From positions 2,714,550 through 2,778,549 of the forward strand of contig NZ_CP090958.1 of assembly GCF_025787225.1 (NCBI RefSeq): a stretch of DNA of 64,000 bases, given 5' to 3'. The translations under genes and the position numbers were made by a program. Positions 7,404 to 25,694 of this stretch are shown one piece after another; positions within the stretch are counted from its first letter, which is position 1, and each line of letters opens with the position of its first letter. The notes below the pieces were generated by a model. That model worked only from the letters and a program-made list of their open reading frames with translations, searched no databases and was not told the DNA's origin. This DNA is from Saxibacter everestensis (GTDB lineage: Bacteria; Actinomycetota; Actinomycetes; Actinomycetales; Brevibacteriaceae).

Positions 7404-8081
7404 CTAGCCGCGGCGGCCGGATCCGAGCCGGAATCCCAATGCCCCGGCGGCATGTTCGGGCGAGGGCTGGTCCCAAAGCCCGGCCACCGCCTGATGCGTC
7501 GCCAGCGAGCGCGTCTCAGCCCGATCGAGGTACAAGATTCCGTCCAGGTGATCGGTTTCATGCGCGACAATACGCGCCGGCCAGCCGGTCACTTCCTCAT
7601 CAAGCACTTCGCCTCGTTCGTCGAAGCCTTGCAACCTGATCGCCGCGCTGCGATTGACGACGGCCTGGTAGCCGGGAACGCTGAGGCAGCCTTCGTAGAA
7701 GGACGCTTCGCGGGCCCCAATAGCTGTATAGCTCGGATTCACGATGACGCGGAACGGCAGCGGTGTCCGCTCACGGGCCAGTGCAACATCGGGATCCACA
7801 GGCGCCGAGTCTTCAAGAACCGCCAACCGCAGCGGAATGCCTACCTGGGGCGCGGCGAGCCCGACCCCCGGCGCTGCTTTCATGGTCGCGCGCATCGAAT
7901 CGATCAGCCGACAGAGCAGTGCGTCTTCCAGCTGCCCATCGAAAGTGTCTGCGGGTGTGCGCAGCACCGGATCACCGGCGGCGACGATCGGCATAATTCC
8001 GTCGTGCTCGTCGGCCCAACCCAGTGCACGCTCGACCAGATTGCGCAGTGCCGCATCCCTGGCCGCGCCGTCGGCCGTCAC
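7404..8081 (-). CDS. def: Peptide deformylase
   Basis: It removes the N-formyl group from nascent proteins. All three metal/active-site motifs are visible: GVGLAAPQVG, EGCLSVPG (metal cysteine) and HETDHLDG (HExxH). At about 225 residues it is longer than minimal Def because of an N-terminal helix (LRNLVERALGWADEHDG) typical of actinobacterial paralogues. I take GTG at 8081, which overlaps the stop of the upstream CitE-like gene as GTGA, so it is likely co-translated as the last gene of the leucine operon. A GTG at 8099 is also possible. A def gene at the end of a catabolic operon suggests a second, non-housekeeping copy, but that cannot be shown here. Confidence 0.93.
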   Translation of the reverse strand: MTADGAARDAALRNLVERALGWADEHDGIMPIVAAGDPVLRTPADTFDGQLEDALLCRLIDSMRATMKAAPGVGLAAPQVGIPLRLAVLEDSAPVDPDVALARERTPLPFRVIVNPSYTAIGAREASFYEGCLSVPGYQAVVNRSAAIRLQGFDERGEVLDEEVTGWPARIVAHETDHLDGILYLDRAETRSLATHQAVAGLWDQPSPEHAAGALGFRLGSGRRG

Positions 8082-8896
8082 AGGCCGGCGCGGGCGCACA
8101 GCTGCTCGGCGTGCCGCAGCACCGGCGAGTCGACCATCTTCCCCTCGAAGCTGAAGACTCCACGCTCCCCCTGCGCCGCGGCAAGAACGCGCTGCGCCCA
8201 GCCGATCTGCGACTCGGTCGGCCGGAACGCAGTCCGAACCACGTCGACCTGGGTCGGATGAATGCAGACCGTGCCCGAGAATCCGCTAGCCGCGGCGTCC
8301 CGTGCCTCATCGGTGAGTCCCTCGACATCCTTGATATCCAGGTGCACGGCATCGAGAGCGAACCGGCCGTAGGCCGACGCGGCCAGCAAAACCGACGCGC
8401 GCGCGTGCCTGGCGACATCCCGATAGCTGCCATTGAACTTACGGCTTGAGCCGCCACCGATGCTGGCGATGAGGTCCTCGGCTCCCCACATCATTCCGAC
8501 CACGTTGTCCGCCTGGGCGATGTCCGAGGCCTTGATCACTCCAAGTGGCGTCTCCACCAGGGCGACTACCTGGAAACCGTCAAGCTCGAGCACCTGCGCG
8601 GGTGACTCGGCCTTGGCCAGCATCAGCTGCGTGTAGTCGGTGTGCGAGATCGCTTCGAGATCTCTGCGCTGGTCCGTCGTGCCGCCGGGGTTCACCCGCA
8701 CCACGGTCGACTTCGGATCGAGCCGGACATCGAGGAGAGCTTTCCGGGCGTCGTCCTTGTCGGCCGGCCTGACGGCGTCTTCCAGGTCGAGAATGACGAC
8801 ATCGGCAGCGTCTGCCGCCTTCTGGTACCGGTCCGGCCGGTCGGCGGGACAGAACAGCCAGCCCGGCAGTCCGGCGAGATTGGTTGCGTCGCTCAT
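8078..8896 (-). CDS. HpcH/HpaI-family CoA-ester lyase (CitE-like; probable HMG-CoA/citramalyl-CoA lyase)
   Basis: A 272-residue TIM-barrel CoA-ester lyase. Family signatures are LFCPADRPDRYQKA at the N-terminus, VILDLEDAVRPADKDDAR (Mg-binding acidic cluster), VRVNPGG, VVALVETPLG with the second metal glutamate, and MMWGAEDLIASIGG. The operon order MCC-beta/biotin carboxylase/acyl-CoA dehydrogenase/MaoC/CitE is that of M. tuberculosis, whose Rv2498c is a bifunctional (R)-HMG-CoA and (S)-citramalyl-CoA lyase serving leucine catabolism and itaconate dissimilation. I infer the same last step (to acetyl-CoA plus acetoacetate) here. It is not true citrate lyase, since no citC/D/F genes are present. 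Confidence 0.88.
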   Translation of the reverse strand: MSDATNLAGLPGWLFCPADRPDRYQKAADAADVVILDLEDAVRPADKDDARKALLDVRLDPKSTVVRVNPGGTTDQRRDLEAISHTDYTQLMLAKAESPAQVLELDGFQVVALVETPLGVIKASDIAQADNVVGMMWGAEDLIASIGGGSSRKFNGSYRDVARHARASVLLAASAYGRFALDAVHLDIKDVEGLTDEARDAAASGFSGTVCIHPTQVDVVRTAFRPTESQIGWAQRVLAAAQGERGVFSFEGKMVDSPVLRHAEQLCARAGL

Positions 8897-8949
8897 GGTG
8901 GGCGTTCCTCGTATGCAGTAGTCGTTGGCCTGTCGATACGCGTCCTAGC

Positions 8950-9420
8950 CTATGGCTTGCAGCGGACCATGGTGGAACGGGTGGCCAGGGCAACTACGTC
9001 GCCGTGCTGGTTCCTGCCGGTGTGTTTGAGGGTGACGACGCCCTCGCCTGGCCGCGACTTCGACAACCGCTTGTCGAGCACCACTGTCTCCGCGTACAGG
9101 GTGTCGCCATGGAAGACCGGCTTGGGAAACGACACATCGCTGAAGCCGAGGTTCGCCACTATCGTGCCCTGGGTCAGCTGGGCAACGGAGAGCCCGACCA
9201 GGGTTGAGAGGGTGAACATCGAGTTGACCAGCCGCTGGCCGAATGGTTCGGTCTCGGCGAATGCCGCGTCAAGGTGTAGCGCCTGGGTGTTCATCGTGAC
9301 GGCGGTGAACCAGGTGTTATCGGCTTCGGTAATGGTGCGGCCGGGCCGGTGCAGGTAGACGGCGTCGAGGTCGAACTCTTCGAACCACAGGCCCTGCTGG
9401 ACGATTTCGCGGCGCGTCAT
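8950..9420 (-). CDS. MaoC-family hot-dog dehydratase (probable methylglutaconyl-CoA hydratase)
   Basis: A 156-residue MaoC/R-hydratase-like protein. It shows GRTITEADNTWFTAVTMNTQALHLDAAFA, the usual hydratase-2 arrangement with the D-x4-(H/N) active-site region, and FGDVSFPKPVFHGDTLYAET-type strands (read here as LGFSDVSFPKPVFHGDTLYAET). The position between the acyl-CoA dehydrogenase and the CitE-like lyase matches M. tuberculosis Rv2499c. I infer it hydrates 3-methylglutaconyl-CoA to (R)-HMG-CoA, the stereoisomer used by the neighbouring lyase; this is inference. It starts 3 bases after the dehydrogenase stop. Confidence 0.85.
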   Translation of the reverse strand: MTRREIVQQGLWFEEFDLDAVYLHRPGRTITEADNTWFTAVTMNTQALHLDAAFAETEPFGQRLVNSMFTLSTLVGLSVAQLTQGTIVANLGFSDVSFPKPVFHGDTLYAETVVLDKRLSKSRPGEGVVTLKHTGRNQHGDVVALATRSTMVRCKP

Positions 9421-9423
9421 GCC

Positions 9424-10614
9424 CTACAGCCCCAGCTCTCGTGCGATCAGCATCAGCTGAACCTCGGTCGTGCCCTCGCCGACCTCGAGGATTTTCGAAT
9501 CGCGGTACTGGCGGGCGACGAGGTACTCGTTCATGAATCCATAGCCGCCGTGGATCTGCGTTGCATCCCGGGCGTTGTCCATCGCTGCCTCGCCGGCGAC
9601 GAGCTTGGCGATGGCGGCGTCCTTCTTGAACGGCTTACCTGCCAGCATTTTGGCCGCGGCGGTGTAGTACGCGGCCCGCGCCGTCATCGTGCGGGCTTCC
9701 ATCCGGGCGATCTTGAACGCGATCGCCTGGTTGCTGCCGATCGGCGCACCGAAGGCTTCGCGTTCCTTGGCGTACCTGACGCTCTCATCGACGCATCCCT
9801 GGGCAGCACCGACGGCGAGCGCACCAACCGCAATCCGGCCCTCGTCCAGGATCCGCAGGAAGTTGGCGTAGCCCCGCCCCCGTTCACCGAGCAGGTTTGC
9901 CTCTGGCACCCGGACATTGTCGAAGCTGAGCGGATGAGTGTCGCTGGAATGCCAGCCGACCTTGTTGTAGGCCGGTTCCGCGGTGAAGCCTGGAGTACTT
10001 GTCGGCACCAGGATGGTGGAGATTTCCGGTTTCGCGGTGCCGTCCCTGCCCTCGCGCTGACCGGTCACGGCGGTAACTGTGACGAGCCGGGTGATGTCGG
10101 TGCCGGAGTTGGTGATGAACGCCTTGGAGCCGTTGATCGCCCACTCACTGCCTGCGTCACCCTCTTCAAGTCGTGCCGTGGTGCGGGTGCCGCCGGCATC
10201 GCTGCCCGCGCCTGGCTCGGTCAGCCCGAAGGCGGCAAGCGCCTTGCCGCTGGCCAGCATGGGCAGCCATTCCTGCTTCTGCTCCTCCGTGCCGAAGCGG
10301 TAGACCGGCATTGCCCCTAGCGAGACGCCGGCCTCAAGCGTTATGGCGACGCTCTGGTTGACCCTGGCAAGTTCCTCGATGGCGAGACACAGCGCGAAGT
10401 AGTCACCGCCCATCCCGTCGTATTCTTCCGGGAATGGCAGGCCGAACAGCCCCATGTCGGCCATTCCGCTGACTATCTCGTACGGGAATGTCTTGGCGGT
10501 GTCGTGGCTTTCGCTGACCGGTGCGACGACGTTATCGGTGAAGTCGGCCACCGTGCGGCGCAGGTCTTCGTACTCGTCCGGCAGCTCGCCTGCCGTGAAC
10601 GCTATTGTGCTCAT
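9424..10614 (-). CDS. Acyl-CoA dehydrogenase (probable isovaleryl-CoA dehydrogenase, FadE19-like)
   Basis: A 396-residue FAD flavoenzyme that makes an alpha,beta-unsaturated acyl-CoA and passes electrons to ETF. The signatures [21 protein letters not shown] and [34 protein letters not shown] are classical for the family. In this operon the likely reaction is isovaleryl-CoA to 3-methylcrotonyl-CoA, the substrate of the carboxylase encoded just upstream. The ATG overlaps the biotin carboxylase stop as ATGA. A branched-chain or short-chain specificity other than isovaleryl cannot be excluded from sequence alone. Confidence 0.92.
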
Positions 10615-12725
10615 GATGTCGCTGCTTTCTGATCGCTGGGAATATCGTTGGGAATACTGTCCATGGCAGGCGTCTCCACACTCGCCAGTACTTCGTCGAG
10701 GGCGACCTGCTGTCCTGCGCGTACCCGGAGGGTCACCACGCCGTCGGCAGGGGCGGTGAGCACATGCTCCATCTTCATCGCCTCGACGATAACAATCGGC
10801 TGTCCGGCCACGACCTGCTCGCCGTTGCCGACCGGAATATCGATGATGGTGCCCGGCATCGGCGAGAGCACGTCGTCGCCTGCTGTGCCGGCTCCTTCTC
10901 CGGATGCTGCCCTACGCGGCGCCTTCAGCGCGAAGGTCCCCTGCCCCGTGCTTATCCAGAGGTCGTCTCCGTCAGGCCAGACCTGGAAATGCTGCCTGGC
11001 ACCGTCGAGTACCGCGTCGAGCTTCTGCCCGCTCATGCTTGCCGACGCGAAGAATCCATCCGGCACGTCATCGCCGTGGGCGCCGGTCGCTACCTCAATC
11101 CGGCCCCGGGCGGTGATGATGCCGTCGTCGTGAACCCCGGCGATGTCGCGCGCGGGGTCATCCGGCCAGAGCGTCGCGCGGCGGGAATCGTCACCTACCG
11201 CGAACTCGCAGCGCACCGGGGCGTGCTCTCCGACCCGCCAGCCGGAGGGGTGGTCCCAGAGGGAGTTCCCCGGGCGGCTCCTGGCCTCGGCGACCAGGGC
11301 AAGCTGGCGATAGAGGGCCGCGACCGCCCAGACCTCGGCGGGCGCACTGGCCGGGACGTAGTCCGGCATCCGCCGGTCGATCAGGCCGGTGTCGAGCTCG
11401 CCGGCCTGCACCTGCGGGTCATTGATCAGGAACCTCAGGAAGTCGATGTTGGTCACGACTCCCGGCACGGACAGGTGACCCAGCGCCGCATCCAGCCGCT
11501 GCAGGGCCTCGGCGCGACTCGCACCGTGGGTGATCACCTTGGCAAGCATCGGGTCGTAGTCGGTGCCGATCCGCTGGCCGGCCAGCAGCCCGGAGTCGAC
11601 CCGAGCGTTTTCCGGCTCGGCGATATCGATCGCGATGCCGCCGGTCGGCAGGAAGTCCCGCGCCGGATCCTCGGCATAGATCCGAGCCTCGATCGCGTGC
11701 CCGGTCATCCGAACGTCGGCCTGGCCGAATGTCAGCTCGGCGCCGGCGCCGATCAGAAGTTGCTGTTCGACCAGATCCAGTCCGGTCACCTCCTCGGTGA
11801 CCGGGTGCTCGACCTGGAGCCGGGTGTTCATCTCCATGAAGAAGAACTCGTCAGGTTGGTCGGCGGACACGATGAATTCCACCGTTCCGGCCCCCGTGTA
11901 CCCGACGCTGCGGGCGGTATTGCAGGCAGCCTCGCCAATTCGTTGCCGGGCTGCCTCGTCGAGTAACGGCGAAGGCGCCTCCTCGATCACTTTCTGGTGC
12001 CGACGCTGCAGACTGCATTCCCGCTCGCCCAGATGCACGACGTTGCCGTGGCTGTCGGCCAGGATTTGAACCTCGATATGCCGCGGGTTCCGGATCAGCC
12101 GCTCGAGAAAGAGCGTGTCATCGCCGAATGAGGATGCCGACTCGCGTCGGGCGCTCGCCAGGGCCGCCGGCAGGTCTTCTGCCCTCTCGACCTCGCGCAT
12201 GCCCTTGCCGCCGCCGCCTGCCGAAGGCTTGACCAGGACCGGGAAACCGATATCGGCGGCGCCCTCGATGAGTTCGGCATCGCTGAGGTTCGGCCGGGAG
12301 ACCCCCGGAACCAGTGGGACGCCGTAGCCGGCCACGGTTGCCTTCGCCGCGATCTTGTCGCCCATCACCTCGATTGCAGCCGCGCTAGGGCCGAGGAATA
12401 CGATGCCTGCTGACTCACAGGCGCGGGCGAAGTCTGTGTTCTCGGACAGGAAACCATAGCCAGGATGGATCGCCTGAGCGCCTGTGGCCTTGGCCGCGGC
12501 GATGACCCGGTCGATGTTGAGGTAACTCTGCTGCGCGGAAGCACGCCCGATGTGGACGGCGATATCGGCCTCGCGTACGTGCCGGGATCCGGCATCCGCG
12601 TCGCTGTACACCGCGACTGTGCGGCTGCCGAGCCGCCGGCAGGTACGCATGACCCGCACGGCTATCTCGCCCCGGTTGGCAACGAGCACCGTGTTGAACA
12701 GGGTCGAAGACGGAACTCTCGTCAT
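10611..12725 (-). CDS. accA1: Biotin carboxylase/BCCP subunit of acyl-CoA carboxylase (AccA1-type, probable methylcrotonyl-CoA carboxylase alpha)
   Basis: A 704-residue alpha subunit. The N-terminal biotin carboxylase domain begins [23 protein letters not shown] and has the ATP-grasp glycine loop [11 protein letters not shown] and [17 protein letters not shown] linker domain is followed by a C-terminal biotinyl domain with the biotinylation motif EAMKMEH. With the adjacent beta subunit it should carboxylate 3-methylcrotonyl-CoA in leucine breakdown, as shown for M. tuberculosis AccA1-AccD1. I choose ATG 12725 because GGAGGAAG lies 7 bases before it; an ATG eight codons upstream is in frame but lacks this spacing. 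Confidence 0.95.
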
Positions 12726-12756
12726 TTTCGCTTCCTCCGGAGTAATCATCGCCCGG

Positions 12757-14388
12757 TCACATCCTGAAAACGCCGTAGGAGACCGGCTCGATCGGCGCGT
12801 TGGCACAGACTCCCAGGGCGAGTCCGACAACGTGCCGGGTGTCGGCAGGGTCGATGATGCCGTCATCCCATAACCGCGCGGTCGAGTAGTACGGATTGCC
12901 CTGCGCTTCGTACTGCTCACGAATAGGCGTCTTGAACTCTTCTTCTTCCGCCTGACTCCAGGCCGCTTCCGGATCCCGGCCGTCGGCGGCTGCCTGGTTC
13001 TCGAGCTGGCCGCGCCGCACGGTTGACAGCACCGAGGCTGCCTGCTCGCCGCCCATCACCGAGATGCGCGCGTTCGGCCACATCCAGAGGAACCTCGGGC
13101 CATAGGCCCGGCCGCACATCGAGTAGTTTCCCGCGCCGTAGGATCCTCCGATCACCACGGTCAGCTTCGGTACCCGGGCGCATGCGACCGCGGTGACCAT
13201 CTTCGCGCCGTGTTTTGCGATGCCAGCCGCCTCGTAGTCCCGGCCGACCATGAAGCCGGAGATGTTCTGCAGGAAAAGCAGTGGCGTTTTGCGCTGGTCG
13301 CACAGCTCGATGAAGTGCGCGCCCTTGAGCGCGGATTCGCCGAACAGCACGCCATTGTTGGCGACGATGCCGACCGGGTGTCCATGGATCCGGGCGAAGC
13401 CGGTTACCAGCGTCTTGCCGTACTCGGCTTTGAACTCGTGGAACGCGCTGCCGTCGACCAGGCGGGCGATCACCTCGTGAACGTCGTACGGGGTCCGCGA
13501 ATCCGGCGGAACGACGCCACGCAGTTCGGCTACGTCGAAATCGGGCTCCTCACCGGGAGCGGTCGCCCACGGAGTATCTTCCGGCGCAGCTAGCGTCGTG
13601 ACGATGTCGCGCATTATCGATAACGCGTGCGAGTCGTCGTCGGCGAGGTGATCGGTCACTCCTGAGGTCCTGGAATGCAGCGCTCCGCCCCCGAGGTCCT
13701 CGGCGCTGACAACCTCGCCGGTCGCCGCCTTCACCAGCGGCGGGCCGCCGAGGAAGATCGTGCCCTGGTTCGCGACGATAATGTTCTCGTCGCTCATCGC
13801 CGGGACATATGCTCCCCCTGCCGTGCAGGAACCGAGTACCGCCGCGAGCTGCGGGATACCTCGTGCACTCAGGGTCGCCTGGTTGAAGAAGATCCGGCCG
13901 AAATGGTCCCGGTCCGGGAAGACCTCGTCCTGGTTCGGCAGGTTCGCCCCGCCGGAGTCCACCAGGTACAGGCAGGGCAGCCGGTTCTCGCCAGCGATTT
14001 CCTGCGCCCTGAGGTGTTTTTTCACCGTGATCGGATAGTAGGTTCCACCCTTGACCGTGGCGTCGTTAGCCACGATCATGCACTCGCGGCCGGAGACCCG
14101 GCCGATGCCGGTGATGATGCCGGCGCCTGGCGAGGCATCGCCGTACATCCCGTTGGCGGCCAGCGGCGAAAGCTCAAGGAACGGGCTGCCCGGGTCTAGG
14201 AGCGCGTTGACGCGTTCCCTTGGCAGCAGTTTCCCGCGCGAGGTGTGCCGCGCCCGTGCCAGTTCCGAACCGCCGAGCGCTGTTTTAGCTAGCCTGGAAT
14301 CGAGTTCGTCCAGCAGCGTGGCGAACGCGGCGGAATTGTTCCGGTAGCTTTCGCTGCCCTGGTCGACCGGCGTGCCTATCTTTCGCAT
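12757..14388 (-). CDS. accD1: Acyl-CoA carboxylase carboxyltransferase, methylcrotonyl-CoA type (AccD1/LiuB)
   Basis: A 543-residue crotonase-fold carboxyltransferase. It carries [62 protein letters not shown] and the C-terminal [31 protein letters not shown]. The GANLP-QDEVFPD and [15 protein letters not shown] stretches are distinctive for methylcrotonyl-CoA carboxylase beta subunits rather than acetyl/propionyl types. It is the first gene of the leucine operon, directly facing the divergent TetR regulator across a 168-base spacer that holds the candidate operator. Confidence 0.94.
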
Positions 14389-14480
14389 CCTGCCCCCACG
14401 CTTCAGTCATCGATCAAGTTCGTCACGTTGTGCGTTACTGCCCGGCGCCCCGCCTCGTCGCGGTGGGACCGATCCCCGTT

Positions 14481-14528
14481 CTCAGTTAATGCAAAATAAC
14501 TGAGTTCAGGTTAATCTGAGTTCACTCA
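14481..14528. promoter_or_regulatory. Candidate TetR operator between leucine operon and its regulator
   Basis: A perfect inverted repeat CTCAGTTA-N8-TAACTGAG occupies 14481-14504. Just beside it TGAGTTCA occurs at 14501-14508 and again at 14517-14524, the latter inside TGAGT-TC-ACTCA (14517-14528). The stretch is AT-rich compared with its surroundings and lies between the divergent carboxyltransferase and TetR genes, where an autoregulating repressor would bind. No footprint data are implied. Confidence 0.65.
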
Positions 14529-14556
14529 ATCTGTCTATAGAGGGCTCGAGTGTCGA

Positions 14557-15153
14557 ATGATTAACGAAACCAGGCCCCGCAGCCAGCAAAAGGCCGAGCG
14601 CCGGGCCTTATTGCTCCGCTCGGCGGCAAGGCTTTTCGCCGATCAGGGCTTCCGCTCGGTGCGCCTGGAGGATCTCGGTGCCGCCGCGGGCATCTCGGGA
14701 CCCGCCGTCTACCGGCACTTCGCAAACAAAGAGAACGTGCTGACCGAATTGCTTGTCGGCATAAGTATCCGCCTGTTGGAAGGCGGCCGGAAGGTCGTCG
14801 CGGACAGCAGCTCGGACCAGGAGGCGTTGGAGAACCTGATCGACTTCCATGTCGACTTCGCTTTGAACGACCCGGAACTCATCCGGATCCAGGACCGCGA
14901 TTTCACCTCGTTGCCACAGACGGCAAAACACCAGGTTCGGCGCTTGCAGCGGGAGTACGTCGAGGTGTGGGTCTCCGTGCAGACCAGGTTGTCCGCAGAT
15001 CTCGAGGTTTCTGCCGCCCGCACCAAGGCACACGCGGCACTCGGCCTGATCAACTCGACGCCGCACAGCGTGCCACGGAACAGACACTCGCAATCGCGTC
15101 AGCTGCTGCGCTCGATGGCGCGTGCCGCACTGCTGGCACCGCCTGCGGACTGA
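14557..15153 (+). CDS. TetR-family regulator of the leucine/isovalerate operon
   Basis: A 198-residue TetR protein. The N-terminal helix-turn-helix runs from QKAERRALLLRSAARLFADQGF through VRLEDLGAAAGISGPAVYRHFANKENVLTELL. The rest is a variable ligand-binding domain. Divergent placement beside accD1 copies the Rv2506-Rv2502c arrangement, so it probably represses the operon until an acyl-CoA intermediate binds. The ATG at 14557 is the only good start. The ribosome binding site is weak. Confidence 0.9.
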   Translation: MINETRPRSQQKAERRALLLRSAARLFADQGFRSVRLEDLGAAAGISGPAVYRHFANKENVLTELLVGISIRLLEGGRKVVADSSSDQEALENLIDFHVDFALNDPELIRIQDRDFTSLPQTAKHQVRRLQREYVEVWVSVQTRLSADLEVSAARTKAHAALGLINSTPHSVPRNRHSQSRQLLRSMARAALLAPPAD

Positions 15154-15244
15154 GCCGATCGTCATCCCGGAGTCGCACCCCAGCCGAGGCAATCTCATGT
15201 CCTGAACCGATGCCGGAAACCTGGCGTCGCGTCAGTCTGGAGGC

Positions 15245-15451
15245 ATGGAAACTTTCACCGACATCGCAACCGGGCTCGGCGTCATCGTCGGCACGGCCGG
15301 CCTCTACGCATTCGCTCTATTCACCCTGGCATTCATAATCGGCGGCGCCGTGCTGCTGCCGATCTGGAACATCCAATCCGACCGCAGGGAAGACGCACTG
15401 CGGAATCAGCAGCCGGGGTCGCGCGGCCTGTTTCGGCGAGCTCACGGCTGA
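15245..15451 (+). CDS. Small membrane protein of unknown function
   Basis: A 68-residue reading frame. Residues about 9-40 are strongly hydrophobic (GLGVIVGTAGLYAFALFTLAFIIGGAVLLPIW), long enough for one or two helices, followed by a charged tail (QSDRREDALRNQQPG). TGGAGG precedes the ATG but is almost adjacent to it, which is poor spacing. I do not recognise a family. The composition looks like a real membrane protein, but coding status is uncertain. Confidence 0.4.
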   Translation: METFTDIATGLGVIVGTAGLYAFALFTLAFIIGGAVLLPIWNIQSDRREDALRNQQPGSRGLFRRAHG

Positions 15452-15456
15452 CGTTG

Positions 15457-16683
15457 TCACACCACCCGCACGCCACCCTGGTAGACCGCCGAGATGTTCT
15501 CCTGCAGCGAGGCGAGCTGGCCGGTCCGATTGAGTTCACGGTCGAGGACCAGCACATCCCCGCGCTGTCCTGCTGCCAACCGGCCGACAGGCTCTCGGGT
15601 GAGCTCCCCGGCAACCGATGTGCCGGCGGCAAGCGCACCTTCCAGGCTTAAGCCAGCCTCGGCCATGAGATGCAATTCCTCGGTGTTGTGTCCGTGTGGT
15701 CCGACCCCGGAATCAGTGCCCATCGCGATCTTGACTCCAGCCCCGATCGCCTTGGCGACGGCGGCCTTGTGGTCGTCAATCACGTTGATCGCCTTCTGCA
15801 CCATCAGCGGCGGGATGTTGTGACCCGCCTCCGCATTGCGCACAACCGACAGCGGAGCCACCAGCGTGGGAACCAGAAACGCGTCCTTCTCCAGCATCAG
15901 CTCGATCGTCTCGTCATCGAGGTAAATGCCGTGCTCGATACTCCGCACCCCGGCGTTCAGCGCGTTCCTGATCCCCTGCGTTCCCTGGGCGTGGGCCATG
16001 ACGTACTTGCCTTGATTCTCGGCCTCTTCGACGATGACGCGGATCTCGTCCGGGCTGAACTGCGAATGTCTCGGGTCATCGGACGGCGACATGACGCCGC
16101 CGGTCGAGCAGATCTTGATCTGGTCGGCTCCTGCCCGGAGCAGCCTGCGGGTTGTCCGGCGCACCTCGTCCAGTCCGTCCGCGACGCCGGACGGACGACC
16201 CGGGTGCTCGCCGAAGATCGACATGTCGGTTCCGGAAGGAACCCAGCCGTCGGCGTGCCCTCCGGTCTGCGACATGATGGCGACAGCCAGCTTCAGCCGG
16301 GGCCCGGCGATCAGGCCGGATTCAATCGCCTCCCGCACACCGAGGTCGGCGCCGCCAGCGTCCCGCGCCGTGGTCACGCCGGCTTCCAGAGTCCGGCGCA
16401 GATGGCCAACCGATTCGTAGAACGGCAGTGAAAACGGCTTGGTCACCATTGCCATCGGGTTGTAGGTATCGACCATCACGTGAACGTGGCAGTCGATCAG
16501 GCCCGGCATCACTGTCTTGCCCTGACACTCGACAACTGTGTCACCCGGCAGCAGGTCGCCCAGGGTCCCGATCGGAGCCAGTCGCGAAATCATGCCATCT
16601 TCCAGCACTACGTGGTGCGGTTCGGAGCGAAAGCTCGTGCCGTCGAAAACGTGTGCGTCCTTGAAGATCGTACGACCGGTCAT
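15457..16683 (-). CDS. Metal-dependent amidohydrolase (imidazolonepropionase/prolidase-like subgroup)
   Basis: About 408 residues of the amidohydrolase superfamily. Metal ligands are visible: the first strand motif GLIDCHVHVMVD (HxH), a lysine in GADQIKICSTGG, YVMAHAQGTQGIRNAL (His), SIEHGIYL (His) and AMGTDSGVGPHG (Asp). LDRELNRTGQL closes the small beta domain. Relatives hydrolyse Xaa-Pro dipeptides, imidazolonepropionate or carbamates; this subgroup is usually annotated only as amidohydrolase. ATG 16683 has GAGGAG 5 bases before it; a start 4 codons earlier is possible. It stands alone and is divergent from the SCO6745-like gene. Confidence 0.87.
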   Translation of the reverse strand: MTGRTIFKDAHVFDGTSFRSEPHHVVLEDGMISRLAPIGTLGDLLPGDTVVECQGKTVMPGLIDCHVHVMVDTYNPMAMVTKPFSLPFYESVGHLRRTLEAGVTTARDAGGADLGVREAIESGLIAGPRLKLAVAIMSQTGGHADGWVPSGTDMSIFGEHPGRPSGVADGLDEVRRTTRRLLRAGADQIKICSTGGVMSPSDDPRHSQFSPDEIRVIVEEAENQGKYVMAHAQGTQGIRNALNAGVRSIEHGIYLDDETIELMLEKDAFLVPTLVAPLSVVRNAEAGHNIPPLMVQKAINVIDDHKAAVAKAIGAGVKIAMGTDSGVGPHGHNTEELHLMAEAGLSLEGALAAGTSVAGELTREPVGRLAAGQRGDVLVLDRELNRTGQLASLQENISAVYQGGVRVV

Positions 16684-16753
16684 TGTGCTCCTCACGAAAA
16701 GACATCATTGTGTTTCCACTCAATCAGACGTCTCCGCAGCCCGGACACACCGC

Positions 16754-16759
16754 TATGGT
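16754..16759 (+). promoter_or_regulatory. Candidate -10 element for a leaderless transcript
   Basis: TATGGT (TANNNT type) ends 6 bases before the ATG at 16766, and no Shine-Dalgarno sequence lies between. This spacing would start transcription at the A of the ATG, a common leaderless arrangement in actinobacteria. A clear -35 is not seen. Confidence 0.45.
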
Positions 16760-16765
16760 CTGTCT

Positions 16766-18343: not shown

Positions 18344-19183
18344 TCAGAACTGGGTGAAGGCAGCGGTTGCCGGGTCAGCTCCGATGCGATTGCCCGATTC
18401 GAGTGCGGTGATCGCGGCAAGTTCGTCCGCGGTCAGTTCGAAGTCGAAGACGTCGATGTTACTGACGATGCGTTCGGGCGTCACAGACTTCGGGATAACA
18501 ATTCGATCCTTCTGCAGATGCCAGCGGAGCACTATCTGGCCCGTCGTCTTGCCGTACTTCTCGGCCAGTCGGCCCACGACATCCGCCGACAGATCGGCGC
18601 CCTGCCCCAGCGGGCTGTAGGCCTCGACCTTGATTCCCTTCGAGCGTGAATATGCGCCGAGCTCGGCCTGCTCCAAGGTCGGATGCGACTCGATCTGGTT
18701 GACGGCGGGAACAATGTCAGTCTCCGCCAGCAACCGATCCAGGTGCTCGGTCAGGAAGTTCGAGACACCGATCGCCCGGACGGCGCCATCGGCGTACAAC
18801 TTCTCCAGCGCCTTCCAGCTCTCGACGTAGAGGTCCTTCGAGGGATACGGCCAATGGATCAGGTACAGATCGATCACATCGAGGCCGAGGGCTTCCCGAG
18901 ATCTGACGAACGCCTCCAGCGTGGAATCGAAGCCCTGATCGCCATTACGAAGCTTGGTCGTGATGAAAACCTCATCGCGCGGAATTCCGCTGGCCTTCAG
19001 CGCCGCCCCGACGCCGGCCTCATTCCGGTAAGCCGCAGCGGTATCAATATGCCGGTAACCGGCCTCCAGCGCCTTTTCCACCGCGGACTGCGCCCCCTCA
19101 GGCGGAACCTGGAATACGCCGTAACCGAGCTGCGGGATCTTTACCTCGTTGTTCAGGGTGACGAGCGGAACTGTGGCGGACAT
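18344..19183 (-). CDS. Aldo/keto reductase (2,5-diketogluconate reductase-like)
   Basis: A 279-residue NADPH-dependent aldo/keto reductase. Signatures are LEAGYRHIDTAAAYRNEAGVGAAL with the catalytic Asp and Tyr, VFITTKL (Lys), IDLYLIHWPYPS (His) and IVIPKSVTPERIVSNIDVFDFEL for cofactor binding. It resembles bacterial 2,5-diketo-D-gluconate/methylglyoxal reductases; the physiological carbonyl substrate is unknown. ATG 19183 has AAGGA 8-9 bases upstream. It diverges from oleA across 236 bases and is probably unrelated to olefin synthesis. Confidence 0.93.
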   Translation of the reverse strand: MSATVPLVTLNNEVKIPQLGYGVFQVPPEGAQSAVEKALEAGYRHIDTAAAYRNEAGVGAALKASGIPRDEVFITTKLRNGDQGFDSTLEAFVRSREALGLDVIDLYLIHWPYPSKDLYVESWKALEKLYADGAVRAIGVSNFLTEHLDRLLAETDIVPAVNQIESHPTLEQAELGAYSRSKGIKVEAYSPLGQGADLSADVVGRLAEKYGKTTGQIVLRWHLQKDRIVIPKSVTPERIVSNIDVFDFELTADELAAITALESGNRIGADPATAAFTQF

Positions 19184-19215
19184 AAGATGAGTCCTTTCTG
19201 AATGCGGCAAGGTTT

Positions 19216-19264
19216 TCTCTCGACGAGAGACTCACAACGGTTAAGGAGTATTCAACCTACTCCT
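19216..19264. promoter_or_regulatory. Two perfect inverted repeats in the oleA upstream region
   Basis: TCTCTCG-A-CGAGAGA (19216-19230) and AGGAGTA-N7-TACTCCT (19244-19250/19258-19264) lie in the 236-base spacer between the divergent aldo/keto reductase and oleA genes. Either could be an operator, and the first is also placed to act in the reductase leader. The rest of the spacer is relatively AT-rich, and I find no confident promoter pair in it. Confidence 0.5.
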
Positions 19265-19419
19265 GACAGCTGACACTCAGGCTACATAGATACGCTCTCT
19301 ATTACTCGTTTCGCTGTGGCGCTGTTACTTAGCTCGACGGAGCCAAGAGGATACCGCTAGCCTTATGAGGCATATGACCTAGGATCCGCAGACTGCGGCG
19401 CCGCACCGATAGGACTTTT

Positions 19420-20442
19420 TTGACAGGCAATTCTAATTTTCGCCATCAGAACGCATCGCTGCTCGCCGTCACGAGCATCGATGCCCCTGTCGTGGTGACG
19501 TCCCGCGAACTCGATGAGCGACTGAAGCCCTCACTTCAACGACTTCGGCTGCCGCGTGGTCTGCTCGATCGGCTCGCCGGCGTCAGCGAACGCCGTTGGT
19601 GGGACGCTTCAATGGACTTTGACGACGCCGCCATCGAGGCCGGAGCAAAGGCGTTGGCCGAGGCCGGCGTGGAGCCCGGCGATGTCGGCCTGCTGATCAA
19701 CACTTCGGTAACCCGCAAACACCTTGAACCGTCGGTCGCGGTAAAGATCCACCACGGCCTCGGCCTGCCGTCATCGGCGCTGAACTTCGACGTTGCTAAC
19801 GCCTGTCTCGGTTTCGTCAACGGCATGTCGCTCGCGTCGACCATGATCGACGCCGGGCAGATCAGATACGCGGTTGTCGTCGCTGGCGAGGACGCGGGCG
19901 AAACCCAGCGTGCCACGCTTGAGCGACTGCTTCGCCCGGATGTCACCCGGGAAGACTTCAATAACGAATTTGCCACTCTGACCCTGGGCTCGGGCGCCGC
20001 TGCAGCGGTGATCGGCCCTAGCAGCGACCACCCCGGGGCACACCGGATTCTCGGAGGCGTGGCGCGGGCGGGCACCGAGCACCACGATCTGTGCGTAGGT
20101 GATATCAATGGCATGCGCACCGATACAAACGGCCTGCTCGAGGGCGGCCTGGAACTTGTACTCGAGGCGTGGCGCGACGCTCAGGGTGAGTGGGACTGGA
20201 ATGGCATGGATCGCTATTTCATGCACCAGGTATCCAATGTGCACCTGAACGCGATCGTCAAGGCGCTCGACCTCGATACCGCTCGGGTACCGGTGACGTA
20301 TCCGACGCTCGGCAATGTCGGCCCGGCCGCCCTACCAATAACGCTTGCCCAGAGTGTCGACACCCTGAATCCCGGCGATCGCGTGCTCTGCATGGGGGTC
20401 GGCTCGGGGCTGAACACCGCGATGACCGAGATCCTCTGGTAG
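19420..20442 (+). CDS. oleA: OleA: thiolase-superfamily acyl-CoA condensing enzyme
   Basis: OleA joins two fatty acyl-CoAs head to head to a 2-alkyl-3-ketoacid in long-chain olefin synthesis. In this 340-residue protein I find all catalytic residues of the Xanthomonas enzyme at equivalent spacing: Glu103 (HLEPS), Cys129 (NACLGFVNG), His269 (MHQVSNVHL) and Asn299 (PTLGNVGPA). The oleBC-oleD genes follow directly, which separates it from housekeeping FabH. The start is TTG at 19420, with TAGGA at about 6 bases. The reductase upstream faces the other way, so this is the first gene of the operon. Confidence 0.95.
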   Translation: MTGNSNFRHQNASLLAVTSIDAPVVVTSRELDERLKPSLQRLRLPRGLLDRLAGVSERRWWDASMDFDDAAIEAGAKALAEAGVEPGDVGLLINTSVTRKHLEPSVAVKIHHGLGLPSSALNFDVANACLGFVNGMSLASTMIDAGQIRYAVVVAGEDAGETQRATLERLLRPDVTREDFNNEFATLTLGSGAAAAVIGPSSDHPGAHRILGGVARAGTEHHDLCVGDINGMRTDTNGLLEGGLELVLEAWRDAQGEWDWNGMDRYFMHQVSNVHLNAIVKALDLDTARVPVTYPTLGNVGPAALPITLAQSVDTLNPGDRVLCMGVGSGLNTAMTEILW

Positions 20443-23120
20443 TGGTGCCTTTCCAAATCGACAGCCTGCCGGCGCCGATCCGCACCGCTGCAAAGCTGCC
20501 GCCATCCGGGCTGCCCGGTTTGCGGCCGGAATTTTCCCGGCTGGTCACCGCCCCCGGACCGGACGGTGACCGCACCTGGCACCTGCTGGACAACGGACCC
20601 GTGCTTGCCGCGGCAGGGGTGACGCCCAGGCTGACCCTGCTGTGCGTGCACGGAAACCCGACGTGGTCCTACTTGTGGCGGAAGCTGGTCTCCGCAGCGG
20701 CCGATGCGCCGCAGCACGCGGTTCGGGTGATCGCGGTGGACCAGCTGGATATGGGATTCTCCGAACGCACCGGTTCGTCCCGGTCCTTGCCGACCAGGAT
20801 TGCGGACCTATCGGCGCTGACCGGGCAGCTCGGCATCGATACCCAAGTCGTCACCGTCGGCCACGACTGGGGTGGTGTCGTCTCGCTCGGCTGGGCCGTT
20901 GATCACCCCGATCAGTTGGCCGGCGTCATCCTGACCAACACAGCGGTTCATCATCCCGCGGGCGAACCAATTCCGGCACCGCTGCGTCTCGCGCTGGCTA
21001 AGGGCGTGCTGCCTCGCGGAACCGTCACCACACCGGCGTTCTTGCAGACGACGCTTGCACTCGGCCACCCGGCCTTGTCACCCGAGACCAAAACGGCCTA
21101 CTCGGCGCCCTACCCGAATTCCGCGCAGCGGGGCGGAATCGGCGCCTTCGTCGCCGATATCCCGGTCAATGACAGCCATCCCAGTTTTGCCGAGCTGGAC
21201 CGGGTCGCCACCGGCGTGCGTGAGCTTACTGTTCCGGCGCTTCTGCTGTGGGGGCCGAAAGATCCGATCTTCGACGACCGCTACCTTCGCGATCTGATCG
21301 CACGACTGCCGCACGCCGACGTGCACCGCTTCGAGGGTGCGGGGCATTTGCTGGCCGAGGATGTCGATATCGCCACACCGATCCTTGACTGGCTGGCCGA
21401 AGGGTTGCTCGCCGCGCAACCGTGCGGTCGGGAAGCGACGGCCGAGGCCGGCTCCGGGCCGTCCGCCGAACCACTCTGGGCCCAGCTCGAGCAACGCGCC
21501 GATGATGATTCGACCGCCTTCGTCGAGATGGCGCCGCCAGGGCTGAAGCGCCGCCGGGTGGTCAGCTGGCGGCGGCTGAACGACCAGGTACTGGCGCTTG
21601 CCGCTGGCCTGCACGCAAGCGGTGTGCGGCCCGGGCACCGCGTCTCGCTGCTGGTGCCTCCGGGTGCCGACCTGACCGCGCTGATTTACGCCTGCCTGCG
21701 CATCGGCGCAATCGTGGTCATCGCCGACGCCGGCCTGGGCGTAAAGGGTCTGAGTCGCGCCGTCCGTGGCGCCGGCCCCGATTACATTGTGGCGATTGCG
21801 CGTGGCCTTGCCGCGGCGCGCGCCTTCGGCTGGCCTGGGACGAAGATCTCGGTCGAGCCGCTTAATCAGACCACCCGCAGGGCCCTGGGGGTCGAGCTGA
21901 CCCTGCCGGACTTGCTCCGCCGAGGCATCGATGCCGAGCTTCCTGCGCCGCCTGCCGCCGACGTAACCGCCGCGATCCTGTTCACGTCCGGCTCGACCGG
22001 ACCGGCAAAGGGCGTCGTCTACACCCACCGGCAGCTTGAGGCAATGCGTGACGCGCTGGCCGGCCGCTTCGACATCGGCCCCGGCACCGGGTTGGTCGCG
22101 GGCTTTGCGCCGTTCGCTCTGCTCGGCCCGGCGCTCGGCGCAACCTCCGTCAGCCCGGATATGGATGTGACTGCGCCGCGCACGCTCACCGCCCGCGCGC
22201 TCGCCGAAGCCGCACAGGCGGTCGAGGCCACCGTTGTCTTCGCCGCGCCCGCTGCGCTTCGGAACGTACTGGCCACGGCCGGGGATCTGGATCACACCGG
22301 GCGTCGAGCGCTGGAGCAGGTACGGATTGTGCTCTCGGCCGGCGCGCCAATTCCGGAGCCGCTGCTCACCCGGATGGCGGGGCTGACACCGAACGCCAGC
22401 CTGCACACGCCCTACGGCATGACCGAGGCACTGCTCGTCACCGACATCAGCCTTGACCAGATCCGTGCGGCGGGCAGTTCGGAGGGCGTATGCGTTGGTG
22501 AACCTGCGGGACCGGTGCAGGTGGCCATCGCAGCATTCGACGCCGAGGGCGTGCCGTCTGCGGAGCTGACCAACAGCCCCGGCGTGAGCGGTGAAATCGT
22601 GATCAGCGCGCCGCATATGAAGGATCACTACGATCGGCTCTGGATCACCCAGCGGCTCAGCGCCGCAAATCCGGGCTGGCACCGCACCGGCGATATCGGA
22701 CACCTCGACGGCGATGGGCGGCTCTGGGTCGAGGGACGCCTGGCCCACGTCATCACAGCGCCTGACGGAATTCACACCCCGGTCGGCCCGGAACAGCGCA
22801 TCGAGGCTCTGGATCAGGTGGGCAGCGCAGCCGTCGTCGGCATTGGGCCACCCGGCGCACAGCAGGTCGTCGTCATAGTTACGCCGGCGCGGGGTGGCAC
22901 GGCTCGCCGGCCCAGATTGGCTCTGCCCGGCCGCCGGCCCAGGCTGGCCGGGACCACCCTCGCTGCCCAGGTGCGCAAGGCGGCAGGTATTCCGGTAGCC
23001 GCTGTATTCGTGCTGCCACAGCTGCCCACCGATATCCGGCACGACTCGAAGATCGACCGCGCGCGACTTGCCGCCTGGGCGGATCGGGTGCTTGCCGGCG
23101 GCAGGCTGACCCGACCATGA
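20442..23120 (+). CDS. oleBC: OleBC fusion: beta-lactone decarboxylase plus beta-lactone synthetase
   Basis: About 892 residues in two domains. Residues about 1-325 form a haloalkane-dehalogenase-like alpha/beta hydrolase (HGNP at 70-73, nucleophile Asp142 in GHDWGG, His near 300 in GAGHLLAEDV): OleB, which decarboxylates a cis-beta-lactone to the olefin. Residues about 345-892 form an AMP-dependent ligase fold with the P-loop LFTSGSTGPAKGVVYTH near 512-530 and HRTGDIGHLDGDGRLWVEGR: OleC, which makes the beta-lactone from the 3-hydroxyacid. The fusion is known from actinobacteria such as Micrococcus. I take GTG 20442, which overlaps the oleA stop by one base; GTG 20445 is equivalent. A low-complexity insert (RRPRLALPGRRPRLAG) sits in the C-terminal part. 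Confidence 0.95.
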   Translation: MVPFQIDSLPAPIRTAAKLPPSGLPGLRPEFSRLVTAPGPDGDRTWHLLDNGPVLAAAGVTPRLTLLCVHGNPTWSYLWRKLVSAAADAPQHAVRVIAVDQLDMGFSERTGSSRSLPTRIADLSALTGQLGIDTQVVTVGHDWGGVVSLGWAVDHPDQLAGVILTNTAVHHPAGEPIPAPLRLALAKGVLPRGTVTTPAFLQTTLALGHPALSPETKTAYSAPYPNSAQRGGIGAFVADIPVNDSHPSFAELDRVATGVRELTVPALLLWGPKDPIFDDRYLRDLIARLPHADVHRFEGAGHLLAEDVDIATPILDWLAEGLLAAQPCGREATAEAGSGPSAEPLWAQLEQRADDDSTAFVEMAPPGLKRRRVVSWRRLNDQVLALAAGLHASGVRPGHRVSLLVPPGADLTALIYACLRIGAIVVIADAGLGVKGLSRAVRGAGPDYIVAIARGLAAARAFGWPGTKISVEPLNQTTRRALGVELTLPDLLRRGIDAELPAPPAADVTAAILFTSGSTGPAKGVVYTHRQLEAMRDALAGRFDIGPGTGLVAGFAPFALLGPALGATSVSPDMDVTAPRTLTARALAEAAQAVEATVVFAAPAALRNVLATAGDLDHTGRRALEQVRIVLSAGAPIPEPLLTRMAGLTPNASLHTPYGMTEALLVTDISLDQIRAAGSSEGVCVGEPAGPVQVAIAAFDAEGVPSAELTNSPGVSGEIVISAPHMKDHYDRLWITQRLSAANPGWHRTGDIGHLDGDGRLWVEGRLAHVITAPDGIHTPVGPEQRIEALDQVGSAAVVGIGPPGAQQVVVIVTPARGGTARRPRLALPGRRPRLAGTTLAAQVRKAAGIPVAAVFVLPQLPTDIRHDSKIDRARLAAWADRVLAGGRLTRP

Positions 23121-24082
23121 GGGTCCTGGTCACCGGCGCCAGCGGGTTGCTTGGCGGTGCGGTCGCGACTCGGCTGGCAGCCGCGGGACACCGGGTGCGA
23201 ACCTTCCAGCGCAGCCCAGCCGGACTGGCGGGGATCGAAGATATCAACGGTTCCGTCACCGACGTCGAAGCAGTCTTGGCGGCAGTGGACGGTTGCGACG
23301 CCGTCGTGCACCTGGCCGCCAAGGTATCTTTCGCCGGAGAGCTGAGAGAGTTCGAGGCGATCAATATCGACGGCACCAATAACCTCCTGACCGCCGCACG
23401 CCGGGCCGGCGTCACCCGCTTCGTCATGGTGTCGTCGCCGTCGGTGGCGCACGCAGGCTCATCGCTGGTCGGGGTCGGCGCGGAACCTGCAGACCCGGAG
23501 CGAGCGCGTGGCCATTATGCCCGCACCAAGGCCAGCGCCGAGCTGCTCGCACTCGCGCAGGACTCGAACTCCCTTTCCGTCGTGGCGGTCAGGCCACATA
23601 TCGTCTGGGGCCCGGGCGACACCCAGCTTGTGGCCCGGGTGGTGGATCGGGCCAGCCGGCATCGGTTACCGCTGCTGGATCACGGAACGGCGCTGATTGA
23701 CACTACCTACATCGACAACGCAGCCAGCGCCATAGTCGCAGCATTGGAACGCGCCACCGTGGCCCACGGGCAGGCGCTGGTTGTCTCGAACGGCGAGCCG
23801 CGCCCCGTGGCCGAGCTGATCGCAGGGATTTGCGCAGCTGCCGGCGTGCCGGCCCCGGCGTGGCGGGTTCCGGCATCGGCGGCTCGCCTTGCCGGTGGCG
23901 TCGTGGAACGAGTCTGGCAGGTTCGCCGCGGCCAGGACGAACCTCCAATGACCCGGTTCCTGGCGGAGCAGCTATCCACCGCACACTGGTTCGACCAACG
24001 ACGGACCCGCGAGGTGCTTGACTGGCGCCCGGAAGTATCGCTTGACCAGGGCTTCGAGCGTTTGGCCCGAAGCTACCGCTAG
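23117..24082 (+). CDS. oleD: OleD: NAD(P)H-dependent 2-alkyl-3-ketoacid reductase
   Basis: A 321-residue extended short-chain dehydrogenase that reduces the OleA product to the 2-alkyl-3-hydroxyacid used by OleC. It has the nucleotide motif TGASGLLGG at residues 6-14 and the catalytic pair Tyr134/Lys138 (YARTK), with VMVSSPSV supplying the serine. Its ATG overlaps the oleBC stop as ATGA, so the three genes form one tight unit. The order A-BC-D matches the actinobacterial olefin locus. Confidence 0.93.
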   Translation: MRVLVTGASGLLGGAVATRLAAAGHRVRTFQRSPAGLAGIEDINGSVTDVEAVLAAVDGCDAVVHLAAKVSFAGELREFEAINIDGTNNLLTAARRAGVTRFVMVSSPSVAHAGSSLVGVGAEPADPERARGHYARTKASAELLALAQDSNSLSVVAVRPHIVWGPGDTQLVARVVDRASRHRLPLLDHGTALIDTTYIDNAASAIVAALERATVAHGQALVVSNGEPRPVAELIAGICAAAGVPAPAWRVPASAARLAGGVVERVWQVRRGQDEPPMTRFLAEQLSTAHWFDQRRTREVLDWRPEVSLDQGFERLARSYR

Positions 24083-24167
24083 GTCCGACTGCGGCTTTGG
24101 TGGCCGAGACTTCGCTTTGGTGCCGATTCGTTGGTTTTTTCGCGCGATTCGACCACAAACCCTCGAT

Positions 24168-25694
24168 TCACCCGAAGACCGCCAGTAGCAGCGTCAGTCC
24201 GCCCAGCAGCGGCAGCAAAACGGCATGCGCACCCAGCACCGTCCGGAAAATCGCCGCTCGCTGCAGCTTTGTCGTCATTGCTGAGCGACCTGGCAGTCCG
24301 CGGTTCGCCAGACCGGCGGCAAAGATGATCTTCGGCGGAGCCGCCATCGCGAGCGCGGAAGCGCTGACGTTTTGCGCAGCCAAGGTGACAACCGGATCGA
24401 TGCCCAGCGCATGCGCGGATGCGGAAGCACTTGTGGACAGCATTGCGCTCGCCCCGGTGTTCGAGCCCGTGATGAAGCCACTCGCGGCGCCGATGAACGG
24501 CAGCAGGAAGAGGTAACCGGCGCCCATCCCCGCCACGTAGGTTGCCGCATAAGCGCTCATTCCGCTACCGGTCAGGATCGCGCCGAGCAGCAGGAACGCC
24601 GCCGTGGAGAGTCCGATTGGCCGCCACATCCGCAACACTGTCGGCAGCAGGCCGGCGTAGATCGAGCGGTCGGCACCGACCAGCATGGGCGCCAGGGCCG
24701 CGGTCACCAGCAGCCAGAACGCCGGGCTCCGCAGTGCGTCCCACGGGCCGGCTAGGCCGAAGATCGTGGTTACCACGCTGGTCAGGAGCAGGCCGAGGAT
24801 CAACACGGCGTAAGGAAGAAGTGCCCGGCGCACCGGCCATGGAAACTCCAGCGGCGCCTGCAGCCTCGATCGCAACAGCACCAAGATGACTGCAGTCAAC
24901 GAGGCAACTACCCCGGCGAGCGGCGGGCTGAGGAAGGCATTGACCGCGAGCAACACCAGCCACATCGCCAGGCTGACAACGACGGCTTCGGCCAGGTGAC
25001 CGGTGACTCCCTTTCGTCCCAGGCCGACGTAAAGAGCCGCGAGCACCATGACCAGCAGCACCGGCAGTGTGAGCAGAGCCGTGTGCAGGCCGAGCGAGCT
25101 GAATTCGACGTCGCCGAGCCGGGCCGAGATCAGCAGGCCAGGGGCGAGGGATCCCCAGGGAACCAGGACCAGACCGAGCAGCCCGATGACTGCCGAGCGC
25201 GTGGCCGAGAAACCGACTCGGCGCAGAATCGGGATCGCCACGATGATGCCAAGCCCGAAGCCGGTCACTGATTCCGCGAACGGCGTGACGCCCAGTACCA
25301 ACAGGATGACGGCACGTCCCTGTGCGGGGCAGACCGAGAGGATCCAACCGCTGATCTTCTCCTGCGCGCCGGATCGGCCGAGTACCTCCGCGAGGGCGAT
25401 GCCGCCGAGGACGATCAGCAGAACCTCCGCGAAGGACGGCCCGAGCGAGCCTGCGACGGCTGCTGCCTGCGGACCGGATACCGGAAACCACAGCAGGCTG
25501 ATAATGACGGCGGCAAAGCAGGAGCCCAGCGCGGCCAGCGTCGGGTTGATCCGAAGGGCAAGCAGCACTGCGGCCAGGCCGATGGGCGCCGCAGCCGCGA
25601 GAGCCAGCCATCCGCTCATGACACGGAAGGAGCGGCGTGGAGAATCGGCAACGGCTTGGTCCTTCATCGATTGAAAGGCAGCGGGCATCGCCAC
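24168..25694 (-). CDS. L-lactate permease (LctP/LldP)-family transporter
   Basis: A 508-residue polytopic membrane protein with about 12-14 helices. Family markers include PFAESVTGFGLGIIVAIPILRRVGF, WGSLAPGLLISARLGDV and GAASGFITGSNTGASAMLSTSASASA, the hallmark of LctP permeases that import lactate or glycolate with protons. The GTG at 25694 has AAAGGCGAGC 7 bases upstream; ATG 25688 is an alternative start. No lactate dehydrogenase gene is adjacent, so the substrate is only inferred from family. Confidence 0.88.
   Translation of the reverse strand: MAMPAAFQSMKDQAVADSPRRSFRVMSGWLALAAAAPIGLAAVLLALRINPTLAALGSCFAAVIISLLWFPVSGPQAAAVAGSLGPSFAEVLLIVLGGIALAEVLGRSGAQEKISGWILSVCPAQGRAVILLVLGVTPFAESVTGFGLGIIVAIPILRRVGFSATRSAVIGLLGLVLVPWGSLAPGLLISARLGDVEFSSLGLHTALLTLPVLLVMVLAALYVGLGRKGVTGHLAEAVVVSLAMWLVLLAVNAFLSPPLAGVVASLTAVILVLLRSRLQAPLEFPWPVRRALLPYAVLILGLLLTSVVTTIFGLAGPWDALRSPAFWLLVTAALAPMLVGADRSIYAGLLPTVLRMWRPIGLSTAAFLLLGAILTGSGMSAYAATYVAGMGAGYLFLLPFIGAASGFITGSNTGASAMLSTSASASAHALGIDPVVTLAAQNVSASALAMAAPPKIIFAAGLANRGLPGRSAMTTKLQRAAIFRTVLGAHAVLLPLLGGLTLLLAVFG

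Follow-up and report, generated by a model that had tools for sequence, protein, structure and literature searches.

The locus at 19420-24082 of the window (the whole 64,000-nucleotide stretch of Saxibacter everestensis DNA analysed here, positions 2,714,550-2,778,549 of a genome made up of one 4.05 Mb contig) is very probably a complete ole operon of the Micrococcales type, predicted from its sequence and by analogy with studied homologues to make a cis internal alkene. This reading draws on its genes, their order and overlaps, a gene fusion, conserved residues and relatives of the locus. Three overlapping genes, oleA, oleBC and oleD, lie on the + strand (Table 1). The coordinates, order and end-to-start overlaps given in an earlier note on this DNA were verified: the TAG stop of oleA (20440-20442) ends on the first base of the oleBC GTG (20442-20444), an overlap of 1 base, with a second GTG right behind the first at 20445, and oleBC and oleD share the 4 bases ATGA (23117-23120). 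The operon is ordinary; the points that go beyond the descriptions we found are a replaced OleC residue and a rare start codon of oleA that many relatives share.

Table 1. Features of the ole locus in window coordinates.
Feature	Position	Strand	Remarks
AGGA, likely Shine-Dalgarno of oleA	19411..19414	+	5 bases before TTG
oleA	19420..20442	+	340 aa, TTG start
OleA Glu103 codon, then Pro104	19726..19728	+	Glu117 of Xanthomonas OleA; 97/97 homologues
OleA Cys129 codon	19804..19806	+	Cys143 of Xanthomonas OleA; 97/97 homologues
OleA His269 codon	20224..20226	+	aligns with His of 3row; 97/97 homologues
OleA Asn299 codon	20314..20316	+	aligns with Asn of 3row; 97/97 homologues
oleBC	20442..23120	+	892 aa, GTG start; fused beta-lactone decarboxylase and beta-lactone synthetase
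OleB domain			residues ~1-325; beta-lactone decarboxylase
OleB nucleophile Asp142 codon	20865..20867	+	99/99 homologues
OleB Asp274 codon, likely triad	21261-21263	+	99/99 homologues
OleB His302 codon, likely triad	21345-21347	+	99/99 homologues
OleB-OleC linker, residues 326-340	21417..21461	+	pLDDT below 50
OleC domain			residues ~341-892; beta-lactone synthetase
OleC ATP-binding loop TSGSTG, residues 515-520	21984..22001	+	99/99 homologues at each position
OleC RHDSK motif with Lys870	23037..23051	+	Asp868 in place of a near-invariant Asn
oleD	23117..24082	+	321 aa, ATG start; 2-alkyl-3-oxoalkanoate reductase

Conservation of residues was counted over 99 loci with an OleBC match, copies of the window excluded. 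A filter for 90% of the length and a stop codon was passed by 97 OleA, 99 OleBC and 96 OleD sequences; OleA was missing in L025 and broken into two pieces in different frames in L069, and OleD was cut in L081 and not found in the stretch in L097 and L102, so these rows were dropped.

OleA scored 453.6 bits on the NCBIfam model NF006720, far above chance level (curated cut-off 285). From residue 5 to its end it aligned with chain 3row (E=2.9e-85, 289.5 bits), which the match table labels 3-oxoacyl-[ACP] synthase III and which we take to be Xanthomonas campestris OleA. The active-site residues Glu103, Cys129, His269 and Asn299, named in the earlier note, are all at the positions it gave, both in this alignment and in every aligned homologue; the counterparts of His269 and Asn299 in the Xanthomonas enzyme are presumably residues 285 and 315. 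Glu and Cys are numbered 117 and 143 there (PMC7064751). The same note had the spacing of the four residues identical to that of Xanthomonas, which is not exact: it is 26/140/30 in the window and 26/142/30 in 3row, with a 2-residue gap between Cys and His in the alignment. Since the Cys-His distance is 140 in 72 and 141 in 26 of the 98 aligned OleA rows (window included), the shorter distance is, on this alignment, normal among these relatives. OleA also matches, at residue 103, the pattern EPxx[AS]x(14,18)DxxNACL, the OleA search pattern of PMC7158056.

The OleBC protein carries an alpha/beta-hydrolase and an AMP-binding domain, and the fused gene adjoins oleA as in the Micrococcales layout. 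An AlphaFold2 model built on a 32-sequence alignment was confident and had two domains (mean pLDDT 85.7, pTM 0.86); besides the linker, pLDDT fell below 50 at residues 519-521 (in the ATP loop), 819-829 and 865-867. Among 20-residue blocks of the protein, conservation is lowest at residues 321-340 (mean 0.10). Foldseek matches to the model (50 of 1993 were listed) included amide bond synthetases, acyl-CoA synthetases, MenE and adenylation domains; by our grouping, the matches listed are of the adenylate-forming kind and cover the predicted OleC half. By sequence, haloalkane dehalogenases and other alpha/beta hydrolases are relatives of the OleB half, whose invariant Asp142, Asp274 and His302 we take, by analogy with the dehalogenases, to be the catalytic triad. 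Asp142 and the TSGSTG loop of OleC were found where the earlier note had put them, and the ATP loop is accompanied by YGMTE and by the C-terminal Lys motif, YGMTE and Lys870 being present in 99/99 homologues. Residue 868 (23043-23045), in the RHN[S/A]K motif next to this lysine, is Asp in the window and Asn in 98/99 homologues, including the nearest relative (L085); the sole other exception, L089, has Arg. The claim that all catalytic residues are present thus holds for the residues checked, but it overlooked N868D in OleC.

OleD is closest to 2-alkyl-3-oxoalkanoate reductase models and contains the motif TGASGLLG and a Tyr134...Lys138 pair, both residues of which are invariant in 96/96 homologues. 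Its score on NF042422 (oxyalk_red_OleD), 302.4 bits, does not reach the cut-off of 580, nor does OleC, with 264.8 bits, reach the curated cut-off of 900 of the NCBIfam equivalog OlefBLtnSynXan. Arthrobacter citreus DSM 20133 (L032) and Curtobacterium pusillum (L049) score much the same and also fall below both cut-offs (305.6 and 262.2; 287.6 and 323.9), so the low scores do not speak against the window locus. These relatives belong to genera with measured olefins. From the scores compared, the OleC and OleD equivalog cut-offs seem not to cover this clade.

The window has in common with the oleABCD genes of Xanthomonas campestris and Shewanella oneidensis the four activities, and with Xanthomonas OleA the Glu, Cys, His and Asn. 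In Xanthomonas oleB and oleC are unfused, unlike in the window, where moreover one OleA spacing is 2 residues shorter and neither OleC nor OleD reaches the cut-offs set for the Xanthomonas and Shewanella models. Much closer is the oleA-oleBC-oleD operon of Micrococcus luteus and other Micrococcales, with which the window shares gene order, OleBC fusion, OleA pattern, taxonomic order and the three-gene unit; among the features checked, only Asp868 of OleC differs. That operon is described in PMC7158056, where its first description is credited to Beller 2010, and fusions of oleB and oleC are known, typically from Micrococcales (PMC7064751).

The individual reactions and the product are inferred from studies of homologues, in which condensation is followed by reduction, lactone formation and decarboxylation to a cis internal alkene (PMC7158056). 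OleA would join two fatty acyl-CoAs head to head into a 2-alkyl-3-keto acid; Cys129 would carry the first acyl chain, and Glu103 would act as the base in the active site of the other subunit (the corresponding Glu117 is reported as essential for condensation; PMC7064751). OleD would reduce the keto group, the OleC half of OleBC would close the resulting beta-hydroxy acid to a beta-lactone using ATP, and the OleB half would remove CO2 to leave the cis internal alkene. The expectation that long-chain alkenes should be made remains the best reading of the locus, in view of the sequence features above and since, as reported by Surger et al. 2020 (PMC7158056), olefins occurred in all ole-bearing Micrococcales genera whose lipids were analysed. 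These were mostly branched, with 27-29 carbons, and several genera made traces only, so production in the window organism may be low. By analogy, the main products are most likely branched alkenes of about C27-C29, a narrower range than the C25-C31 proposed in the earlier note. The genome has E1-alpha genes of alpha-keto acid dehydrogenases; by our reading two E1-alpha genes are followed by an E1-beta-like frame, and these could supply branched primers. Olefin loci from Micrococcales are already on record; this one extends the list by a single genome and lends support to predicting that its family makes branched long-chain alkenes.

Relatives of the operon are common. A contig scan yielded 377 candidate stretches, 353 of them confirmed as relatives, and the best 80 were kept; among these 80, a set that favours fused genes because the query was the OleBC fusion, oleBC and oleD were present in 80/80 and oleA in 79/80. 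The exception is L025, in which the oleBC match runs from base 10 of the contig. Within the family, OleBC is present in every one of the 36 other genomes examined, as long matches in frames of more than 900 codons, and in an even draw of the order OleA was found at E<=1e-60 in 116/297 genomes and 36/95 genera. The OleA of Arthrobacter citreus DSM 20133, a strain on the list of PMC7158056, is 71% identical to that of the window. Several loci depart from the usual arrangement. One 280-contig draft of the family (G021, C209) has OleBC and no OleA match at E<=1e-60. In L181 (G012, 12692-16762) oleD lies about 4 kb from oleBC, so that something now separates them, and in L102 (G020) oleD was not found within the fetched stretch. 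The two pieces of OleA in Salinibacterium sp. PAMC 21357 (L069, 3971-4989) reflect a frameshift in the genome or the assembly. Operons of actinobacterial type also turned up in records labelled 'Acidobacteria bacterium' MAG (L019) and 'Planococcus sp.' (L057), which are perhaps misbinned or misnamed.

The substitution at residue 868 bears on whether the pathway runs to its end. If the cluster were expressed but N868D weakened its OleC half, the pathway would stall, and in place of alkenes there would be a build-up of beta-hydroxy acids, or of ketones formed from spilled keto acid. Asp at this position is unique among the 99 aligned homologues, two residues before Lys870 of the RHNSK motif; however, no other motif checked is damaged, no stop interrupts the 892-residue frame, OleBC shares 65% identity with its nearest relative, and we found no role for Asn868 itself. 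We consider such a stall improbable.

Two other products or functions appear to us even less credible, to the point of being hardly worth entertaining. One is that the cluster makes a beta-lactone natural product instead of an alkene, as relatives of OleA, OleC and OleD are inferred or known to do in clusters without oleB (PMC7064751). The oleACD-type clusters of Streptomyces toxytricini and Nocardia brasiliensis share homologues of these three proteins with the window and lack oleB, whereas the window has oleB, fused to oleC and with its likely triad invariant. The other is that the genes serve general fatty acid metabolism, as a FabH-like synthase and an acyl-CoA ligase; the names of the NCBIfam models would fit this, NF006720 being called '3-oxoacyl-ACP synthase III' and the OleC model with the highest score 'fatty acid CoA ligase family protein'. 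However, OleA scores 89.3 on the FabH model TIGR00747 (cut-off 292.1), and a better-scoring FabH-type C-terminal domain exists elsewhere in the genome (91.9 vs 55 bits). OleA also has the Glu base (followed by Pro), which, within the thiolase superfamily, only OleA homologues have according to PMC7064751.

Within the alkene operon that we favour, oleA starts with TTG, as the earlier note had said, suspecting that this may lower the OleA level: between the upstream in-frame stop and codon +12 the window gene (locus L084) has TTG as its sole start candidate. The N-terminus of OleA could be aligned in 167 loci, or 157 once 10 identical stretches were dropped, which allowed the homologous start to be compared. 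At or nearest to this start position the codon was TTG in 81 of the 157 loci, GTG in 53 and ATG in 7, with no candidate within -6..+2 codons in 16, in a sample that is uneven, with the named loci being those nearest to the window, and in raw counts that ignore relatedness. Loci with a single possible start gave TTG 44, GTG 14 and ATG 1 (n=59). A Shine-Dalgarno-like tetramer lies at most 16 bases upstream of the homologous start in 122/167 loci, near-identical ones included.

Under a rule anchored on homology, oleA had 22 TTG and 2 GTG (n=24), oleBC had TTG in 2/23 and oleD in 0/12, and other neighbouring genes gave TTG 10, GTG 32 and ATG 28 (n=70). A relaxed rule gave 30 TTG and 5 GTG in oleA (n=35) and 10 TTG in 106 other genes; TTG was kept in 776/911 ordered oleA pairs vs 8/19 for other genes. 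The TTG excess was absent from a control without homology anchoring, which took the first in-frame candidate past the upstream stop: with a 15-codon rule oleA had TTG 4, GTG 7 and ATG 3 (n=14) and other genes TTG 10, GTG 37 and ATG 29 (n=76), and with a 30-codon rule the counts were TTG 1, GTG 3 and ATG 1 (n=5) and TTG 5, GTG 23 and ATG 14 (n=42), respectively. Since the first candidate in many oleA lies well before the homologous N-terminus, and a base-composition filter retained just 47 oleA frames, this control was replaced by the anchored rule.

In the window's own family, TTG is found at position 0, -1 or -4 in 21/22 distinct oleA sequences, the window counted, and it also prevails among the distinct sequences of families f6 (11/13) and f19 (3/5). 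GTG is the start in families f3 (3/3), f7 (6/6), f8 (8/8) and f13 (4/5), which speaks against a general TTG rule, and family f11 is mixed (3 ATG, 2 TTG, 2 GTG; n=7). Judging by these loci, the TTG start of oleA is a trait shared by part of the order, not peculiar to this genome; other families mostly have GTG, and the scarcity of ATG is wider than the TTG trait. In Curtobacterium, 11/12 sequences had no start candidate within -6..+2 and 10/12 had an ATG 15 codons upstream, so that OleA apparently begins at least 15 codons upstream (L018, L021, L031, L033, L039, L042, L047, L049, L055 and L059); this ATG would give OleA an N-terminal extension.

We tentatively suggest, as a possibility about which we are rather doubtful, that TTG may be held by selection in this family and several others, keeping OleA below OleBC and OleD. 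Low translation of OleA would stop the unstable keto acid from outrunning the enzymes that consume it and leaking as ketone. This role is plausible because the keto acid spontaneously decarboxylates to a ketone in the OleA assay (PMC7064751), and because in Corynebacterium glutamicum a thioesterase gene was weakened by replacing its ATG with TTG (PMC10355004). If so, the pathway would carry its own dosage setting in the conserved start codon, which would then be a simple target in production strains for altering the yield of alkene or the ketone side product. Among the papers searched, none reports a conserved oleA start, judged by title or abstract, and the terms 'start codon' and 'TTG' are absent from the main texts of PMC5857589 and PMC6195688.

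No Rfam family matched at gathering scores over 18900-24400, so the idea of a regulatory RNA was dropped, and no consensus promoter or terminator was found over 19100-24300 (the promoter scan covered the sigma-70 consensus only). When 16 genes of the window were tested, only oleA, oleBC and oleD recurred in stretches of 15-20 kb from seven relatives, where none of the 13 flanking genes was found beside ole (E<=1e-25); in the best 80 named loci a single flanking gene was found, an aldehyde dehydrogenase, in 4 loci. Because of this, a functional link to the acyl-CoA carboxylase/acyl-CoA dehydrogenase cluster 4-11 kb upstream, as a supply of branched precursors, was rejected as coincidence. This cluster (8078-15153, - strand) encodes a CitE-like lyase, an acyl-CoA dehydrogenase, a biotin carboxylase-type subunit and a carboxyltransferase, and adjoins a regulator of the SACE_7040 family on the + strand; in our reading, its apparent role is branched-chain acyl-CoA catabolism. 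Over 18% of its length, in pieces within 8959-14280, a 25 kb query matched a Nocardia farcinica record at about 77% DNA identity.
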